Shown: in pieces, positions 25,141-37,624 of the stretch
How the letters are laid out: every line of letters begins with the position of its first letter
How positions within the stretch are numbered: position 1 is the stretch's first letter
From: Caryophanales bacterium
GTDB lineage: Bacteria > Bacillota_I > Bacilli_A > RFN20 > CAG-826
Assembly (NCBI GenBank): GCA_016290145.1
Contig: JAEESX010000008.1
Location: forward strand, 1-37,624
Direction: 5' to 3'
Length of the DNA: 37,624 nt
Program-made: the position numbers and the translations under genes
Notes under the pieces: model-generated
The model's input: only the letters and a program-made list of their open reading frames with translations
What the model was told of the DNA's origin: nothing
Database searches by the model: none

Positions 25141-27315
25141 TTAAACTGATAATTCTATATTTCCGAAGTCTATGACTTCTTGATATAAAGTTTCGTTATA
25201 TGACCCGTTATAACCACGGGTTTCAACCAAATAATTTCCTGGCATATCCGCCATATAAACACTATTAACAAGTGTCTCGGAATATGCACCATCAACACTA
25301 AAGTTAGTAATTAGTGTTTGACCATCAAGGTCCCAAATATAAACGGTGAATGATGTGTATGTAGAATTGTCACAATACACTGTTACTGCTAATTGATAAC
25401 TATCTGCGACAGATGCATCAGGTCTCCAAGCGAGGTTTAAAGAACCATCAATATATGTATCTGTGAGACTACTAATATCTCCAGTTCCTGTTCCTAATGT
25501 AACCTTTTGATAAGCACCATATTCAGTGTTATAGTCACTCATCGCATATAATTCGTAACTCAAATCATACATCGCGCTTAAATCGCTTTCTTCGATGCCT
25601 TCAACGCGATAATAATCAGTGAATTCAATCTTGCTTAATATGTATTCATATTCGACATGGAATAATCCATCACGGTCTTTGTTATAAGATAGGAAGATAG
25701 AATATTTTGTATTATCAATATGTTCACCAGGATCTTCCACTTCGATATTCATACCTAACATCATTCCGTTTTCTGGTGTACCAATCTTCATAAAGCTTGC
25801 GCCTGTAAGAGATGGTTCAACTTGTTGCTGTTCAGTTGGAATTTGACCGAAATGAATCACTGTTGTGTATAAGATGGTTTCCGCACCGGTAGCCACTGTC
25901 GCAGGTCCGCTAGATGGATTTGGATTATTGTTATTCCATTCTTCAACGTCTTCTGCGCGGTGAGATACAGTTGTGACTGTAAATTTATATGGTGCATAAG
26001 AAACGTTCGCAAAGTTAACAGCGAATGGTTCGTTAAGTGGTAAGTTATATTGGCTATTATTTGGGAATGTCATTGATAATGTATCACCACTTGCTCTTTC
26101 AACTTCAATCGCGCTGATGGTTGTGCGTTCGTACACGCTAGCATAATCATCCGCGGAGCAGCCAATAAACATATTATATGTTTCTTCAGCACTACCTTCT
26201 GAAGTAACGCGTTCAATATAAACAGCGTCTTCAATTGTGGCTTGTGCTTTTTCAATACTTGATAAATTAACTAAGTTAGAGAACAAATAGAGACTCATCT
26301 CATCTTCACGGCCACCTGCGGATTGTCCGTTTGGATCGGTGTGTGTGGCAATATAGCCCGCATCATCCGTAGTCGCGTATAATGCGACATAGATTTCATG
26401 GCCTCTAGCATTAGAATACCATTCGACTTTTTGTCTGCTAAATGGGTCATTATCATCAAGATAAGCATATCCATCGCGTTGATATTCAGAAGTAGATTCA
26501 TTAGGTTCATTTTCAAAGATGCATAAACGATAGTTATATAAGTTAATGCCTAAAGTATTGACATAGTCAATGGTTGTGTAATAGACATCATTACCAAGTG
26601 GATCAACTTCAATCTCTAGAGAGATAGTATTTCTTCTACCTCTTTCAGTAGAGGCAGTAACTGGCTCTTCTAAAATATATTGTCTTTCAAGGTATAAGAA
26701 AGATGGTTGATACACGTTAATTGTGTAATCAGTTTCTTCATATAAATCAGTGAACTCACCTTGCGTCTCACCATAATTCCTAATAGGAATTTCTTTAACA
26801 TCATCGTATTGTTCACAAGTTAATTCCACGACCAAATTGCAATCCGCACCGGGATCGCTACTATAGGCTTCGTCTTCATCGTTACCGATATTTAAAATAA
26901 AGGAAATTGTTGAGCTTGTTGAAACAACTTCGCTGATTTGACAGATTTGTGGAAGATCATCCACGAGTTCGGTAGTTACTAAGTCAATACCAACAACTGC
27001 CACAACTGCGGTAGTAACCACTGCTGCGGTTGTTGTGACTGCGGTACCCACTTTTGCGGTAGCGCTAGTAACTTTTTCGATATCTTTTTGATCAATATTA
27101 GGTTCTTCTTTATCGACCTGTTTATTGATCTTAGTTTCGTTAGAATTTATTTCTTTTCCTTCTGAAGTGTATTCATTAGTCCAAGTAATCTTGTTCTCTT
27201 CTTTTTTGAAGACAAAAGAATCACTAAAAGGAGAATTATTCTCCTCCTTTTTAATGTTTAATGATTCTTTAATTGAACCTTTTTCGTTGTAGTCTTCAAA
27301 TTTGTTACGCTTCAT
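25141..27315 (-). CDS. Large single-TM surface protein, cytoplasmic N-terminus and FN3-like extracellular repeats, unknown function
   Basis: Polar N-terminus, TM ATAKVGTAVTTTAAVVTTAVVAVVGIDLV, then beta-rich extracellular sequence. Confidence 0.6.
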   Translation of the reverse strand: MKRNKFEDYNEKGSIKESLNIKKEENNSPFSDSFVFKKEENKITWTNEYTSEGKEINSNETKINKQVDKEEPNIDQKDIEKVTSATAKVGTAVTTTAAVVTTAVVAVVGIDLVTTELVDDLPQICQISEVVSTSSTISFILNIGNDEDEAYSSDPGADCNLVVELTCEQYDDVKEIPIRNYGETQGEFTDLYEETDYTINVYQPSFLYLERQYILEEPVTASTERGRRNTISLEIEVDPLGNDVYYTTIDYVNTLGINLYNYRLCIFENEPNESTSEYQRDGYAYLDDNDPFSRQKVEWYSNARGHEIYVALYATTDDAGYIATHTDPNGQSAGGREDEMSLYLFSNLVNLSSIEKAQATIEDAVYIERVTSEGSAEETYNMFIGCSADDYASVYERTTISAIEVERASGDTLSMTFPNNSQYNLPLNEPFAVNFANVSYAPYKFTVTTVSHRAEDVEEWNNNNPNPSSGPATVATGAETILYTTVIHFGQIPTEQQQVEPSLTGASFMKIGTPENGMMLGMNIEVEDPGEHIDNTKYSIFLSYNKDRDGLFHVEYEYILSKIEFTDYYRVEGIEESDLSAMYDLSYELYAMSDYNTEYGAYQKVTLGTGTGDISSLTDTYIDGSLNLAWRPDASVADSYQLAVTVYCDNSTYTSFTVYIWDLDGQTLITNFSVDGAYSETLVNSVYMADMPGNYLVETRGYNGSYNETLYQEVIDFGNIELSV

Positions 27316-28088: not shown

Positions 28089-28121
28089 TTAAAAAAATCC
28101 GCGTTCCCACGGACTTTTTTC
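28089..28121 (-). terminator. Terminator after the YCG-repeat gene
   Basis: AAAAAATCCGcgttcccaCGGACTTTTTT. Confidence 0.7.
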
Positions 28122-28468
28122 TATCCAATAACGAATAACAAAGTTATAAGCGCCATCCACTGCAGACCGGTCATAAAACCATCTACTTGGTATATCGCTT
28201 TGCCACAATATTCTCTAATAATATTCCCATCAACTTGGTATCTAGCAGGACCGCAGTAATCTCTCACTAAATGGCCATCAAATGTCGCGACTGCTGGTCC
28301 GCAATATCTTCTAATTGTTTGACCAGAAAACTCATAGATTGCGTTGCCACAATACTTTCTTAATTTATTGTCATCTATCTGATAGATAGCGGGACCACAA
28401 TATTCCCTAATAAGATCCCCATCAATAGTTAAAATTGCATTACCGCAATATCTTCTTAATGTTGCCAT
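28121..28468 (-). CDS. Small protein of six 16-aa R-x-Y-C-G repeats plus C-terminal TM helix
   Basis: RRYCGNAILTIDGDLI/REYCGPAIYQIDDNKL/RKYCGNAIYEFSGQTI/RRYCGPAVATFDGHLV/RDYCGPARYQVDGNII/REYCGKAIYQVDGFM then TGLQWMALITLLFVIG. Confidence 0.75.
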   Translation of the reverse strand: MATLRRYCGNAILTIDGDLIREYCGPAIYQIDDNKLRKYCGNAIYEFSGQTIRRYCGPAVATFDGHLVRDYCGPARYQVDGNIIREYCGKAIYQVDGFMTGLQWMALITLLFVIG

Positions 28469-31800: not shown

Positions 31801-31836
31801 AACAAAAAATCGCTCGGTTAGGAGCGACTTTTTTAA
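31801..31836 (-). terminator. Terminator downstream of the serpin gene
   Basis: AAAAAATCGCTCggttaGGAGCGACTTTTTT. Confidence 0.75.
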
Positions 31837-33371
31837 TAAGTTGGATTATCAATATGTCCGACAAATATCGGTGTATCGTTGATGTCTCTAATAATGTAGA
31901 TAAATGGTTGATTGAGTTTAACTTGTAAGATATCGGTATCCATTTGTATGCCGCTTTCTGCTTTCATAGTTGCTACAGTTAAGCTTCTAATAACGGAACC
32001 ATCTTCATTGAATTCAACTTGGTTCTTTTGCTTCATAATACCAAGATAATGTTTGAAGCCATCAAGTCGAGAATCGGTAAAGGCGTTATGGAAAGAATCG
32101 TAAACAGGACTGAACATATCTCCAAGCCCTAAATCCACCATCGAATTCTCAAAGTCAAAGTCAATTGAGTTTTTAAATTTAGGTGTCGCTAAGCGAACTT
32201 CTATATTATTGTGCGCATAGTGGCAATATTCCTCATCTTCACCTTCAGGACATTCTGGAACAATTTTATTATCTTCGTTTTCTTTGAAAACATTAACGTT
32301 TTTGGTGAGTTCAAAGATATCATCTTTTTCATCTTTAGGAACAATATATGTCACTGAAGCATTACCATTTGCGTAGTAGTCTTTAACTGAGATATAAGTT
32401 CCATAATCATAATAATGAGGAACGAAATATGAATGATGCATATAAGTAACTTTTTTAGTATCACCATTAGCTAGATAGAAATCGCCTTTTGTATTCTCTT
32501 TACTTAAGTATTTGCTTTCCCAAGCATTTTTAAAGAATAGAGTTGAGAACCAAACGAGCATAGTTTTTTCATCAAGTTCTAAGAAATCCTTATTGATAAA
32601 TCCCTTTGCGTGAACGGCATCATTAGCCCACTCAAGCATTTTGTTAACATCACCATCGTTATTAAAATCACATGAGTATGCCATTGTGTAGAGTTTGGTT
32701 AATTTTTCAACATAAGAAGTTGAATATTCATAGCCTGATCGGAAGAAAGCCGCGTTCTTTAATTGAATTGTGGATTCATCATCCGCAAAGGAATTGGCCA
32801 TCATTACTTTCTTATAGAAAGCAACACGTTGTTCTTCATTTAAACCAAGTAATGTATCAAATCTTTCCGCCAAATTTTCTCTAGAGATAGATCCATAAAT
32901 TTCATTAAGAACGGAATATAAGCCGACAGGACTATAAGTCATGTTTTCTTTTCTACCTGTTTTAACTAAAGAATGATATGTCAAATTAGAGAAATTGTTA
33001 TAAGCGGTTGCTTCATCTTCACTAATCATACTTTTGGTTGGTTCTGTGCCATCTGGATAGCTAACTGTATTTAATGGTCTAAATGTATTGCTTTTAGCAA
33101 TAGAGATTTCATTCATCGATAATCTCATTCGTTTAGTTTGAACACCACTGTCTTTCATTAAAAATGTATTAATAAATGCGGCGCATCCCGCAACAATAAG
33201 ACCAAGTGTAGCTAAAGAGCAGCCAACAGGAACCACCACCTTCCATGGGAATTTCTTCTTTGGTTTAGGATAATTGGCTTCTAGTTGTCTAGTATCAAAA
33301 GTTAGATTGATATCTTGCTTCTCAATCTTAAACTCGAAATCTTTTTTAAATTGTTTCTCAGTTTTGTTCAT
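31833..33371 (-). CDS. Membrane-anchored serpin: short cytoplasmic N-terminus, one TM helix, extracellular serpin domain
   Basis: TM VVVPVGCSLATLGLIVAGCAAFINTFL; serpin NMTYSPVGLYSVLNEIYG...FFKNAWESKYLSKENTKGDFYLANGDTKKVTYMHH...VEFNEDGSVIRSLTVATMKAESG...LNQPFIYIIRD. Start moved from tracked 33395 to MNK at 33371 (SD GGAGGTAGGAGTT). Confidence 0.88.
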   Translation of the reverse strand: MNKTEKQFKKDFEFKIEKQDINLTFDTRQLEANYPKPKKKFPWKVVVPVGCSLATLGLIVAGCAAFINTFLMKDSGVQTKRMRLSMNEISIAKSNTFRPLNTVSYPDGTEPTKSMISEDEATAYNNFSNLTYHSLVKTGRKENMTYSPVGLYSVLNEIYGSISRENLAERFDTLLGLNEEQRVAFYKKVMMANSFADDESTIQLKNAAFFRSGYEYSTSYVEKLTKLYTMAYSCDFNNDGDVNKMLEWANDAVHAKGFINKDFLELDEKTMLVWFSTLFFKNAWESKYLSKENTKGDFYLANGDTKKVTYMHHSYFVPHYYDYGTYISVKDYYANGNASVTYIVPKDEKDDIFELTKNVNVFKENEDNKIVPECPEGEDEEYCHYAHNNIEVRLATPKFKNSIDFDFENSMVDLGLGDMFSPVYDSFHNAFTDSRLDGFKHYLGIMKQKNQVEFNEDGSVIRSLTVATMKAESGIQMDTDILQVKLNQPFIYIIRDINDTPIFVGHIDNPTY

Positions 33372-33909
33372 AACTCCTACCTCCATAGTAATCACGAAGT
33401 TTCTTAATTCCTCTTTGATACTTAGAAGAAACTTGAGAAGTTGTTAATTTCTTATCTTCAGCGATTTCTCTAAAAGAGAATCCGCAGACGATATGAAGAA
33501 CTAAATAGTTATATTCTTCTTCATCTAATAAATCTTTAAATTCATCTAGATATAAAGAAATGTTCTTCTTATCTTCTTCTCCTCTCATATCATCGGAATA
33601 AGAGAGATGGTTCTTTAACTCTTTATAGCGGTTTATAGAAAGATTCTTCGCTGTCACGAGTAAGAAATACTTGAGCTTAGTTTCATTCAAGAATGAGCCT
33701 CTTTTCTCATACATCTTTAAGAAAGTATCGTTAACGATATCTTTACTTTCTTCATCATCTTTTAATATGTCAAAAGCGACATAGTAAACGAGATAACGAT
33801 ACTTGTTAAAGATGATATTAAAAGATTCATCCACTTCTTCTTTAGATAGTGAGCAGAGTTTTCTAATAACCGAATAGCTAATCTTTTCCATCTCTAATAA
33901 ATAAAACAA
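33358..33909 (-). CDS. ECF-type sigma-70 family RNA polymerase sigma factor
   Basis: Region 2-like YYVAFDILKDDEESKDIVNDTFLKMYEK, region 4-like FSFREIAEDKKLTTSQVSSKYQRGIKKLRD; overlaps the serpin start. Confidence 0.85.
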   Translation of the reverse strand: MFYLLEMEKISYSVIRKLCSLSKEEVDESFNIIFNKYRYLVYYVAFDILKDDEESKDIVNDTFLKMYEKRGSFLNETKLKYFLLVTAKNLSINRYKELKNHLSYSDDMRGEEDKKNISLYLDEFKDLLDEEEYNYLVLHIVCGFSFREIAEDKKLTTSQVSSKYQRGIKKLRDYYGGRSYEQN

Positions 33910-33957
33910 TTTAAAAAATCGTTTTTGTCGAAATTAATTATACATTGATGTATTCAA

Positions 33958-33990
33958 GAAAAAAATCACTCGATGCGGAGTGATTATTTT
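33958..33990 (-). terminator. Terminator after the zinc-ribbon membrane protein
   Basis: AAAAATCACTCgatgcgGAGTGATTATTTT. Confidence 0.7.
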
Positions 33991-34650: not shown

Positions 34651-35685
34651 TTAATTTTCTTCTTTTGATTTTTTCTCATCTTCATGGAGAACCGCCATAT
34701 TGACATGGCAATAACCATCAGGATGCTTTTGTAAATATTGTTGATGATATTCTTCTGCGGGATAGAACTGTTTAAGATATAGAAGTTCAATCTTATGATC
34801 TTTCAAATTGAGTCCATCGAAATATGTTTTAACAATCTCTTCATCACCCATCTTAGTGAAATATATACCTGTTCTATATTGAATGCCTTCATCCTCACCT
34901 TGTTTATTCTTAGAGAATGGGTCAACGATTCTTAAATATAATTCAATTAGCTTTTCTAAAGAAACCTCGTGTTCATCATATAAGATTTGTACTGTTTCCG
35001 CGGCGTCATCTAATCCTTTCTTTAAATCTTCATAGGAAGGATTTTTCTTCGTGCCATTTGCATAGCCCACTGTGGTTTGAACAACGCCCCTCACTTGTGA
35101 GAAGTATCTTTCTACTCCCCAGAAACAGCCACCTGCAAAATAGATGATTTTTACATTTGGCAAATCATCGCGTTTTCTATTGCCATAATAAATATTATTT
35201 CTTGGAGAATAGTAACCAACTTTTGCCTCGTATCTGAAATAAGATGAAATCACACCATTATAAATAGCAACCGCGAACATCAACGCAGTAATAAAGATTG
35301 CAGATATAGTCACCGCTTCTTCACAATTTGCGAATGCAAAGTATATAAATGATGCAATAAAGGTAAATGTAGTTAATCCCATGCTAACCGCTCTTAAGGA
35401 GTTTGGCTTTTTAACTCTAATAGAAAGAATAACTATACAGGCGATAGTAAGTAAGAATGTGATAAATGGAGTAACTACACCATATGCCATAGGTCTTGGA
35501 TCCCAATAACTTGTAGTAATAATGTGATAAGCAGGTTTATTTGCTTCATCAAAATACCACTTCGCAGTCACTAAAGAATTTGGAAGACATTCAAGAAGTA
35601 ACACTAACGCTGTCGCTATTAGTGAGACTATAACAAATATTCTTTTTGCTTTAACTGGCATATACATAGGTCTATATAATAGCAA
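34651..35685 (-). CDS. msrA: Multi-TM protein fused to C-terminal peptide methionine (S)-S-oxide reductase (MsrA)
   Basis: About four TM segments then IIYFAGGCFWGVERYFSQVRGVVQTTVGYANGTKKNPSYEDL...EEYHQQYLQKHPDGYCHVNM. Confidence 0.88.
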   Translation of the reverse strand: MLLYRPMYMPVKAKRIFVIVSLIATALVLLLECLPNSLVTAKWYFDEANKPAYHIITTSYWDPRPMAYGVVTPFITFLLTIACIVILSIRVKKPNSLRAVSMGLTTFTFIASFIYFAFANCEEAVTISAIFITALMFAVAIYNGVISSYFRYEAKVGYYSPRNNIYYGNRKRDDLPNVKIIYFAGGCFWGVERYFSQVRGVVQTTVGYANGTKKNPSYEDLKKGLDDAAETVQILYDEHEVSLEKLIELYLRIVDPFSKNKQGEDEGIQYRTGIYFTKMGDEEIVKTYFDGLNLKDHKIELLYLKQFYPAEEYHQQYLQKHPDGYCHVNMAVLHEDEKKSKEEN

Positions 35686-35794: not shown

Positions 35795-37624
35795 TTATAT
35801 TCTTTCAATACTAATCGTGGCTACTGCTTTGCCATCAACTGTACTAATGCTATCAACGGAGAATTGCCAACTGAATGTCTCACCACAATCCATCTTATTG
35901 CCATCTGGGAATTGATTGGTGAAGTCGTTCCAGTTAAAGGAATCGCCACTTCTAAATAAGTGAGTTTCATTAATAACTTTAATCTTGTTGCCTAAAGAGT
36001 CTTCTTCAGGAGCGTTATTTCTAACATTAAAGAGAATAGAGTATCTATTATATTCTTCACCTAATTTAGAACCATGGTTTGTACCAGTTGAAGTATTAGT
36101 GAATGCTTCTGTAACTCTACCTAGTGTTGGATCAGTCACTAAGTTAGTGCTGTAACCACTAGAACCAAATTGAGTTAATCTCGCATCAACGTGCCATAAT
36201 CTCACACCGGCTTCTTGTGGTCCGTTAGAATAGAATCCCTTCCATTTATATGTCGCATCAAATTTCTTTGTGCCTGTAGGCGCAAATAACTCTAATAACA
36301 TATATTCATCAAATGGAGAATTAGCGTCTTCTGGATGATTGCTTAATAATATAGCAACATGGCTAGATTCATAATCTTCAAGTTCAATAACTGTATCGGT
36401 TTCAGGAACGATAACCTTACCCCAACCTAATGCGGTTATAGAGAAGGCTTCGTGACTACCTGTGGTATGCTCTTGCATATTGAATCCACCGGCAGGTCTT
36501 GTATCTCCACCATAATCGTAATAGTCCATTAAACCTAACATATGTCCGGTTTCATGAATAAAGACATGGCTATCTGCATCACTATGATTAGTATCATCTA
36601 ATGCTTCAAAGATTGAAGCCCACATATGGTATTTAACACCTGGATGATCACTGTCAGTGGCGTTAGAATAGTTTTCAAAACGAACCATACCTGTATCGGA
36701 TTCATTACTACCATAAAGGATACATATGGAGTCATAAACTCCATTATGGTCGCTATCATAACTACTTCTGCTATCACTTGGATTATTTGTGAAATACCAA
36801 TCCACTGCGTTAAGCACTAATTGTTTTTTATTTGCACTATTGTCATCGTAATAAGAGAATGGTTGTCCAACTTCATACCAGTTAGCGATAGTCGCATTAT
36901 AGTTAAGTGCGTGATTAGATAACTCATAATAATATGTCTTAACAGAGTTCCATCCATTTTCTTGGTGAGCACCATTAAAGGCAATATTTAACTTTTCTCT
37001 AACCATATCTCTATCACTAATCATGGAACTGCTATTAGCAAACCACACAGGAATAACTAAGGATTTGATAGAACCACTATTAGGCATATATCGACCATTA
37101 TCTTCTGTCCAAGGAGTTTGATTGAGTAAACCCATATAGTTATAATCTAAGGACTTAGGAGAATAATTAACTGCATCAATAACCGATACTTCATAAGATT
37201 CCTCAAATGGTTTTTCTAAATATTCACCAGAAACAGTAACTGTATAGTCACCTTCTACGTGCATATTAACTTCACTAGAATCAACACTATATTCAGTTAT
37301 CTCTTCAGTGAATCCACCTTTTAATGTTCCTATTAAATTAAATGAAGGAACAAATGTCTTATCTTTGATAAATGTCTTTCTAGCATTCTTAATAGTGACA
37401 TAATCTAATTCTTTAGCAATAACACTAATATCTACATAAACAGTACAAGACATTATTTTAATATCAATTCTTGCATTGCCCACTTTTAAAGCGGTGATAT
37501 TACCTTTATTATCCACTGATACAACATCAGGATTCTTACTAGTATAAGTAACACCACTCCAAGTGCCGCGGAAATCAGGTTCTTCTCCTTCTTCCACTAA
37601 ATCTAATCTAATTTGATCAGTCAT
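35795..37624 (-). CDS. Secreted M6-like zinc metalloprotease with N-terminal Ig-like (Big2-type) region; N-terminus cut by window edge
   Basis: HVFIHETGHMLGLMDYYDYGG zincin motif with the LMDYYD context of M6; N-terminal YTSKNPDVVSVDNKGNITALKVGNARIDI is Big2-like. Confidence 0.82.
   Translation of the reverse strand: MTDQIRLDLVEEGEEPDFRGTWSGVTYTSKNPDVVSVDNKGNITALKVGNARIDIKIMSCTVYVDISVIAKELDYVTIKNARKTFIKDKTFVPSFNLIGTLKGGFTEEITEYSVDSSEVNMHVEGDYTVTVSGEYLEKPFEESYEVSVIDAVNYSPKSLDYNYMGLLNQTPWTEDNGRYMPNSGSIKSLVIPVWFANSSSMISDRDMVREKLNIAFNGAHQENGWNSVKTYYYELSNHALNYNATIANWYEVGQPFSYYDDNSANKKQLVLNAVDWYFTNNPSDSRSSYDSDHNGVYDSICILYGSNESDTGMVRFENYSNATDSDHPGVKYHMWASIFEALDDTNHSDADSHVFIHETGHMLGLMDYYDYGGDTRPAGGFNMQEHTTGSHEAFSITALGWGKVIVPETDTVIELEDYESSHVAILLSNHPEDANSPFDEYMLLELFAPTGTKKFDATYKWKGFYSNGPQEAGVRLWHVDARLTQFGSSGYSTNLVTDPTLGRVTEAFTNTSTGTNHGSKLGEEYNRYSILFNVRNNAPEEDSLGNKIKVINETHLFRSGDSFNWNDFTNQFPDGNKMDCGETFSWQFSVDSISTVDGKAVATISIERI

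Follow-up and report, generated by a model that had tools for sequence, protein, structure and literature searches.

A membrane-anchored serpin as candidate anti-sigma sensor of an ECF sigma factor in uncultured Bacilli

Introduction

Membrane anti-sigma factors with exchangeable sensor domains have been described that respond to sugars, to lysozyme, or to envelope stress. Whether a serpin might occupy the sensor position is the question raised by a locus in a Caryophanales bacterium (GenBank assembly GCA_016290145.1, contig JAEESX010000008.1, positions 1 to 37,624; this whole stretch of 37,624 nucleotides is referred to as the window). Here, the gene for a sigma factor of the extracytoplasmic function (ECF) type is followed, on the minus strand, by an overlapping gene for a transmembrane (TM) protein with an extracellular serpin domain, the spring-loaded fold by which animals trap proteases. 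An initial annotation had proposed the two as a candidate protease-sensing pair of sigma and anti-sigma factor, in which an outside protease could trap the serpin and release sigma. Comparison with related genomes leads us to read the pair as an autoregulated ECF sigma/membrane anti-sigma module with a serpin sensor, an explanation to which, taken as a whole, we assign a probability of roughly two in three. Its parts differ in firmness: an anti-sigma role of the TM-serpin is very probable from sequence comparison, protease attack on the reactive loop is moderately favored as the signal, and full covalent trapping of the protease appears unlikely.

Organization of the Gene Pair

The ECF sigma factor gene (33358..33891, minus strand; 177 aa) and the gene of the TM-serpin, the candidate serpin-type anti-sigma factor (31833..33371, minus strand; 512 aa), share 14 nt between sigma stop and serpin start (33358..33371, minus strand), an arrangement read as translational coupling. 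The initial annotation had recognized this overlap and placed the sigma start at a TTG at 33909; that codon lies within a conserved −10-like element, TTGTTTTATT (33900–33909), and the likely start is the ATG at 33891, which is kept in relatives. The best start of the TM-serpin is the ATG at 33371 rather than the GTG at 33395. Over 57 homologues, the junction between the two genes varies from −26 to +37 nt, −4 being the commonest value. Two terminator-like stem-loops flank the pair, one upstream of the sigma promoter (33964..33985, strand unassigned) and one 3′ of the serpin gene, between serpin and aldehyde dehydrogenase genes (31810..31827, listed on the plus strand, with a T-run on the minus strand as well).

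ECF sigma factors consist of regions 2 and 4 only, separated by a linker of less than 50 residues; they typically display positive autoregulation, recognize AAC at −35 and CGT at −10, and are co-transcribed with the cognate anti-sigma factor (PMC8103513). The sigma factor of the window has this domain layout: its score with TIGR02937 (sigma70-ECF; cut-off 42.9) is 62 bits, and it matches Sigma70_r2 (E 7e-9) at residues 34–97 of the 183-aa open reading frame that includes the upstream TTG, and contains a weak region 4 at about residues 128–172 of the same frame, with Pfam scores under the curated cut-off. Overlapping genes between terminator-like stems, together with universal adjacency among relatives, would fit co-transcription.

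The TM-serpin comprises a cytoplasmic N-terminal segment (residues 1–43; 33243..33371, minus strand), a TM helix (residues 44–66; 33174..33242, minus strand) recognized by its hydrophobicity, and an extracellular serpin domain (residues 123–510; 31842..33005, minus strand). This topology agrees with the initial annotation, whose cytoplasmic stretch of about 50 polar residues is revised to about 43 residues of basic character. Since the 15 residues preceding the TM helix carry an average net charge of +3.9 in homologues, the N-terminus is expected to lie inside. AlphaFold2, run on a 53-sequence alignment (mean predicted local distance difference test score, pLDDT, 84.7), predicts helices at residues 2–18 and, briefly, 27–29 of the cytoplasmic segment—which is devoid of any Cys/His motif—followed by a TM helix (43–70), a disordered stalk (72–81), and a serpin body from about residue 95. 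The ectodomain had been called a complete serpin, and so it proves: residues 123–510 match PF00079 (E 4e-41) over model positions 2–370 of 370, and AlphaFold2 and Foldseek agree, the closest solved structures being loop-inserted serpins (cleaved cortisol-binding globulin and vaspin, latent tengpin) at a template modelling score (target) of about 0.83.

Exclusive Association of Sigma with TM-Serpins

The initial annotation had named conserved synteny as its own test. In the first 58 related genomes—relatives being uncultured Bacilli from gut and rumen whose records are filed under Erysipelotrichaceae, Bacillales, Bacilli, or Mollicutes—nine TM-serpins were found (eight of them complete and one truncated at a contig end), all located directly 3′ of an ECF sigma gene, and none of the shorter secreted serpins had this neighbor. 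A wider survey took in 279 genomes from the order as well as the GTDB contigs, yielding 140 distinct serpins with upstream DNA. After inspection by eye, sigma preceded 57 of 57 TM-serpins and 0 of 83 lipoprotein or secreted serpins. Automatic sorting by position of the TM helix had given a table of 51/1/6/82 (Fisher p 3e-30), the seven exceptions being sorting errors: six TM-serpins misassigned by the lipobox rule and one lipoprotein with an over-extended start. Among 17 further regions chosen for low score, all five new TM-serpins and none of eight lipoprotein serpins had the sigma gene. A class-wide search added four TM-serpins from another family (f27), each with sigma at −4 nt; signal-peptide serpins of that family had none. 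In total, the sigma family lies directly upstream of 66/66 complete TM-serpins of uncultured Bacilli, and sequence comparison thus indicates that the adjacency is conserved and exclusive to the TM form. Searching at the level of the phylum, in a small sample, returned no further TM-serpin outside the class, and no relative was found in the viral contigs searched.

Four close relatives within the main clade (G122, G113, G253, L078) carry, where the cytoplasmic segment would be, a lipobox or a short anchor; in these, sigma is absent. Because of this joint loss and of the difference between TM and lipoprotein forms, the presence of sigma can be said to track the cytoplasmic segment, not the serpin.

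A Common Layout with Exchangeable Ectodomains

A profile of the sigma factor was searched in 32 genomes and the gene following each match was read. Paralogous sigma factors are likewise followed by genes whose products have a short N-terminal segment ahead of a single TM helix and an ectodomain, the latter being RsgI_M (the central domain of RsgI, a known anti-sigma factor), Big_3, a degenerate serpin, or, in several cases, a domain without Pfam match. RsgI_M is clear on the partner of one paralogous sigma (L193, E 5e-28) and weaker in two others (L190, L204). When the N-termini of 57 serpins were used as phmmer queries against the N-termini of 19 partners and 946 background proteins, partners took all of the eight top ranks, with a best E of 4e-4; an example is the similarity between NADFNRIASQINY of a serpin (L005) and NPDFSRIANKISY of a non-serpin partner (L198). 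The separation was confined to single-sequence searches: a profile built from all serpin N-termini left the partners unseparated from background except for one (E 0.006). Because of the similarity across partners and of the gene order, the N-terminal segment is probably a shared sigma-binding module.

Two loci, L184 (1962–3308) and L230 (in G009 and G219, respectively), encode degenerate TM-serpins on the sigma module, the first of which matches the Pfam serpin model by its C-terminal half only. These are perhaps sensors drifting from serpin function.

Candidate Promoter and Regulon

Upstream of the sigma gene lies a bipartite motif of fixed geometry that occurs in two types, CGACRAAA-N13-TTGTYTTATT (type I) and CGAACGTTTT-N13-GTNTWA (type II). 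In the window it takes the form CGACAAAA-N13-TTGTTTTATT (33900..33930, minus strand), a candidate sigma-dependent operon promoter. A core pattern spanning both types is present in 34/57 upstream regions, compared with a mean of 0.02 in shuffles. Relative to the AAC and CGT of ECF promoters, type II has AAC and often CGT, whereas the type I element of the window has GAC and TGT in the same geometry.

Exact type I sites number 16 in 20 genomes (reversed-pattern control, 0), and 14 of these are sigma promoters; the available assembly of the window's genome, 850 kb and 75% complete, contains a single one. The two others precede lipoprotein genes, namely a lipoprotein serpin in G015 and, in G166, a lipoprotein of no known kind. 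The latter (L220, G166:C22:20150; 190 aa) represents a second candidate regulon member. Type II sites number 11 in 12 genomes (control, 0), ten of them at the sigma promoter and one before a truncated sigma copy (L241, G167:C23; open frame of 76 aa), the second in its genome, whose type II promoter is intact. G113 and G122, both devoid of sigma, also have no exact promoter site. A conserved, near-unique motif upstream of the sigma factor's own gene is strong but indirect evidence for autoregulation, and we read the system as autoregulated with a very small regulon. Placement of a lipoprotein serpin among the targets is suggestive, not a rule. Separately, four lipoprotein serpins of genus g26 (L158, L159, L161, L166) have in common another ECF-like element upstream, which ends in CGTCTTAAT ... 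GGTGAGAGG, suggesting control by another ECF sigma factor.

Evolution of Sigma-Linked Serpins

In trees of the serpin domain, the sigma-linked state needs 9–10 changes, 6–7 of which are forced by well-supported branches. Besides the main clade, within which the four unlinked relatives sit, sigma-linked serpins occur as the g53 clade (five rows), as the f27 clade, as a four-member clade (L172, L225, L233, L234), as a pair (L171, L226), and singly as L152 and L230. Outside the TM clade, lipoprotein serpins of Bacilli come closest in sequence. The trees are quick ones with an unknown root, for which reason gains and losses are not distinguishable with certainty. The tree of the sigma factors, weakly supported, places the serpin-linked ones without clean separation. 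Repeated recruitment of serpins to the sigma module is the simplest, though not a proven, reading of these sequence trees. A broader proposal—that serpins were recruited several times in Bacilli as membrane anti-sigma sensors, forming a class of protease receptors that read loop cleavage as transcription and count secreted serpins among their outputs—is put forward tentatively, at slightly less than even odds.

Proposed Mechanism and Alternatives

Synteny, joint loss, RsgI_M-type partners of paralogous sigma factors, the shared N-terminal module, and the motif at the sigma factor's own promoter strongly support the core of the initial annotation, a sigma/anti-sigma pair with an extracellular serpin. 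In the mechanism that we propose, cytoplasmic residues 1–43 would hold sigma at the membrane. First, an extracellular protease would attack the reactive-centre loop and alter the serpin by cleavage, probably by insertion of the loop, and possibly by formation of a covalent protease complex. In a second step, the changed serpin would expose the stalk or the TM helix to a first cut, which would be followed by intramembrane cleavage by an M50 site-2 protease. The freed sigma factor would then direct transcription of its own operon along with a few genes for exported proteins, in one relative including that of a lipoprotein serpin. An M50 peptidase (PF02163) scores over the cut-off in the window's genome (G000) and in seven relatives (8/8 tested); as all 14 control genomes are matched too, and such a protease occurs in most bacteria, its presence is unspecific.

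Several observations weigh against this reading. The sole Pfam match of the TM-serpin is Serpin, with no anti-sigma domain found in its N-terminal segment. A signal-peptidase-type AXA site at the TM helix occurs in only 19/57 homologues, so that a route through signal peptidase, as in RsiV, is unsupported. The regulon seems tiny: allowing up to two mismatches adds 21 promoter sites, equal to the 21 of the control, and no claim is therefore drawn from the loosened motif. All genomes are uncultured assemblies, and the homologues are non-independent. Binding of sigma by residues 1–50, as suggested in the initial annotation, was modelled by co-folding sigma tethered to the TM-serpin on an unpaired alignment, the overlap being read through by one four-letter word that acts as an artificial linker. 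Taken by blocks of ten residues, confidence in serpin residues 1–37 rose from 77/72/55/47 for the TM-serpin by itself to values near 85/81/80/66, an ordering that would fit a sigma interface. This is weak evidence, given the artificial tether, the unpaired alignment, alignments that differ between the runs, and a predicted template modelling score of 0.57 without an interface score.

The remaining difficulty concerns the reactive loop, and from it arises the best-surviving alternative, namely that the serpin is an anti-sigma factor but non-inhibitory, serving either as a cleavable bait or as a ligand sensor that uses the serpin switch like hormone-binding serpins. Inhibitory serpins, including prokaryotic ones, have ExGTEAAAA at P17–P9 (PMC8233489). 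The P17–P8 hinge of the window, EDGSVIRSLT (31977..32006, minus strand), departs from this consensus with its EDGSVIRSL. The deviation is shared by 49 main-clade proteins, which have E-D-G-[TS]-x-[VIA]-[KR]-S-[VIL], followed by [ST], with V/I/A-K-S-V/I/L at P12–P9; shutter positions of the clade are changed as well (N186 to S/T, H334 to Q). Eighteen secreted serpins retain the A-A-A hinge and mostly N186. Furthermore, AlphaFold2 places hinge residues 458–469 as a strand beside 445–455, that is, inserted without cleavage, and the top structural matches are cleaved or latent forms, among them cortisol-binding globulin. On the other hand, G at P15, T/S at P14, and the inward-facing even positions are small, so that loop insertion is possible; the loop is long, its exposed part comprising residues 470–483 (31923..31964, minus strand; pLDDT <50); and the other sigma-linked groups, with E-A-A-A or E-G-[GA]-A, are nearer the canonical hinge. 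Owing to the non-canonical hinge, classical trapping is doubtful in the window's clade. The trap envisaged in the initial annotation is thus weakened by hinge and shutter, although, given the predicted insertion and the loop-inserted nearest structures, cleavage and insertion of the loop may still take place. We regard a non-inhibitory serpin as a serious contender, with odds somewhat below even. A specific elastase-like "AAPM" bait was considered for the loop and rejected, a motif of the [SAG][AG]xP type being found in only 21/49 proteins.

Alternatively, the serpin could be an inert or protective cap, with the signal arriving otherwise, for example through general envelope stress or a house protease that cuts the stalk. 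The free variation of ectodomains among paralogues would suit such a role, as would the TM-proximal stalk (72–81), predicted to be disordered and thus directly cuttable. However, the hinge is highly conserved in the clade, serpins are found on the module at separate tree positions, and one predicted target is itself a lipoprotein serpin, and we consider the cap improbable. A still less probable possibility is that the serpin is an anchored inhibitor merely co-expressed with sigma, its N-terminal segment serving for topology only and the actual anti-sigma factor residing elsewhere. The plain lipoprotein serpins of the clade and the failure to recognize an anti-sigma domain in the segment speak for it; against it, sigma follows the cytoplasmic segment and not the serpin, partners of paralogous sigma factors share the layout (some with RsgI_M), and N-termini are alike across ectodomains. 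Chance adjacency or an assembly artefact, for which nothing speaks beyond the metagenomic origin of the assemblies, is negligible in view of 66/66 TM-serpins across many independent assemblies.

Genomic Surroundings

Near the sigma–serpin pair, positions 35795–37624 (minus strand) encode a secreted M6-like protease of the immune inhibitor A type with a Big_2 domain, which runs off the window end; being a metalloprotease, it is no obvious serpin target. At 34651–35685 (minus strand), a membrane-helix N-terminal stretch is fused to a methionine sulfoxide reductase (MsrA) domain. A 115-aa protein (28121–28468, minus strand) is composed of repeats of about 15 residues, YCG-x-A-x-Y-x-x-D-G-x-x-I-R, with a weak Bflower_3 match. 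A large surface protein (25141–27315, minus strand) shows a long polar N-terminus, then one TM helix and repeats; in G017, a protein laid out in a similar way (L009, 3066–4454, in the orientation of the serpin strand) is encoded directly downstream of the TM-serpin.

Comparison with Known Systems

The initial annotation had remarked that serpins are known as secreted inhibitors but are not known as an established class of anti-sigma sensor. The open-access literature searched contained no paper naming a serpin as an anti-sigma factor or linking serpins to ECF sigma factors (subscription journals lay outside the search); nine papers in which both terms occur appear to deal with other subjects, and a serpin as anti-sigma sensor appears undescribed. 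Prokaryotic serpins have been called functionally enigmatic (PMC8233489). A serpin sensor would let bacteria gauge protease attack by a well-understood one-way switch, its conformational change becoming a promoter read-out, and would give a subset of these proteins a testable role. It would also point to a means by which bacteria of the gut perceive proteases of host or microbial origin, and would offer a ready-made, modular protease biosensor.

Bacterial lipoprotein and secreted serpins, including the cellulosomal PinA (PMC12484212) and the prokaryotic groups S–U (PMC8233489), share the serpin fold with the window's protein; they differ by having no sigma neighbor, no cytoplasmic segment, and a canonical E-A-A-A hinge. 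According to the account of Alvarez-Martin 2012 given in PMC8012564, a serpin of Bifidobacterium breve is protease-inducible through a two-component system. The theme of a gut bacterium that couples the sensing of proteases to making a serpin is shared, yet in B. breve the serpin is the output and the two-component system the sensor, whereas in the window's pair the serpin would be part of the sensor-regulator.

With respect to the cytoplasmic segment, class I anti-sigma factors have a four-helix domain of about 100 aa, often with an Hx3Cx2C motif, and class II domains of the CnrY type have less than 50 aa, their two helices clamping sigma4 and sigma2 (PMC7406223). The window's segment, at about 43 aa and without a zinc motif, is unlike class I. 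Class II it fits by length only: a first helix is predicted and a zinc motif is missing as in CnrY, but the second helix is weakly predicted and a sequence relationship is not apparent. The ectodomain of CnrY is an unrelated one.

As complete systems, two precedents come closest, although the TM-serpin belongs to neither. In SigV/RsiV of Bacillus subtilis, the anti-sigma factor is a lysozyme receptor and sigma is released via RasP (PMC4183432). Common to both is an ECF sigma factor with a membrane anti-sigma factor that itself senses an enzyme, a host one in the case of RsiV, a role that for the window's system is proposed; the ectodomain is a different one (the window's protein matches Serpin only in Pfam) and the AXA site is not conserved. 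In SigI/RsgI of Clostridium thermocellum, the sigma gene is followed by that of a membrane anti-sigma factor with a short sigma-binding N-domain, one TM helix, and an exchangeable sensor—a carbohydrate-binding module, a glycosidase, or a peptidase-like domain (PMC12203970). The TM-serpin differs in matching neither RsgI_M nor RsgI_N, in its serpin sensor, in having no self-cleaving periplasmic domain, and in its ECF-type sigma factor. Despite these differences, the layout is the same, and in the clade the partner of a paralogous sigma factor carries RsgI_M itself.
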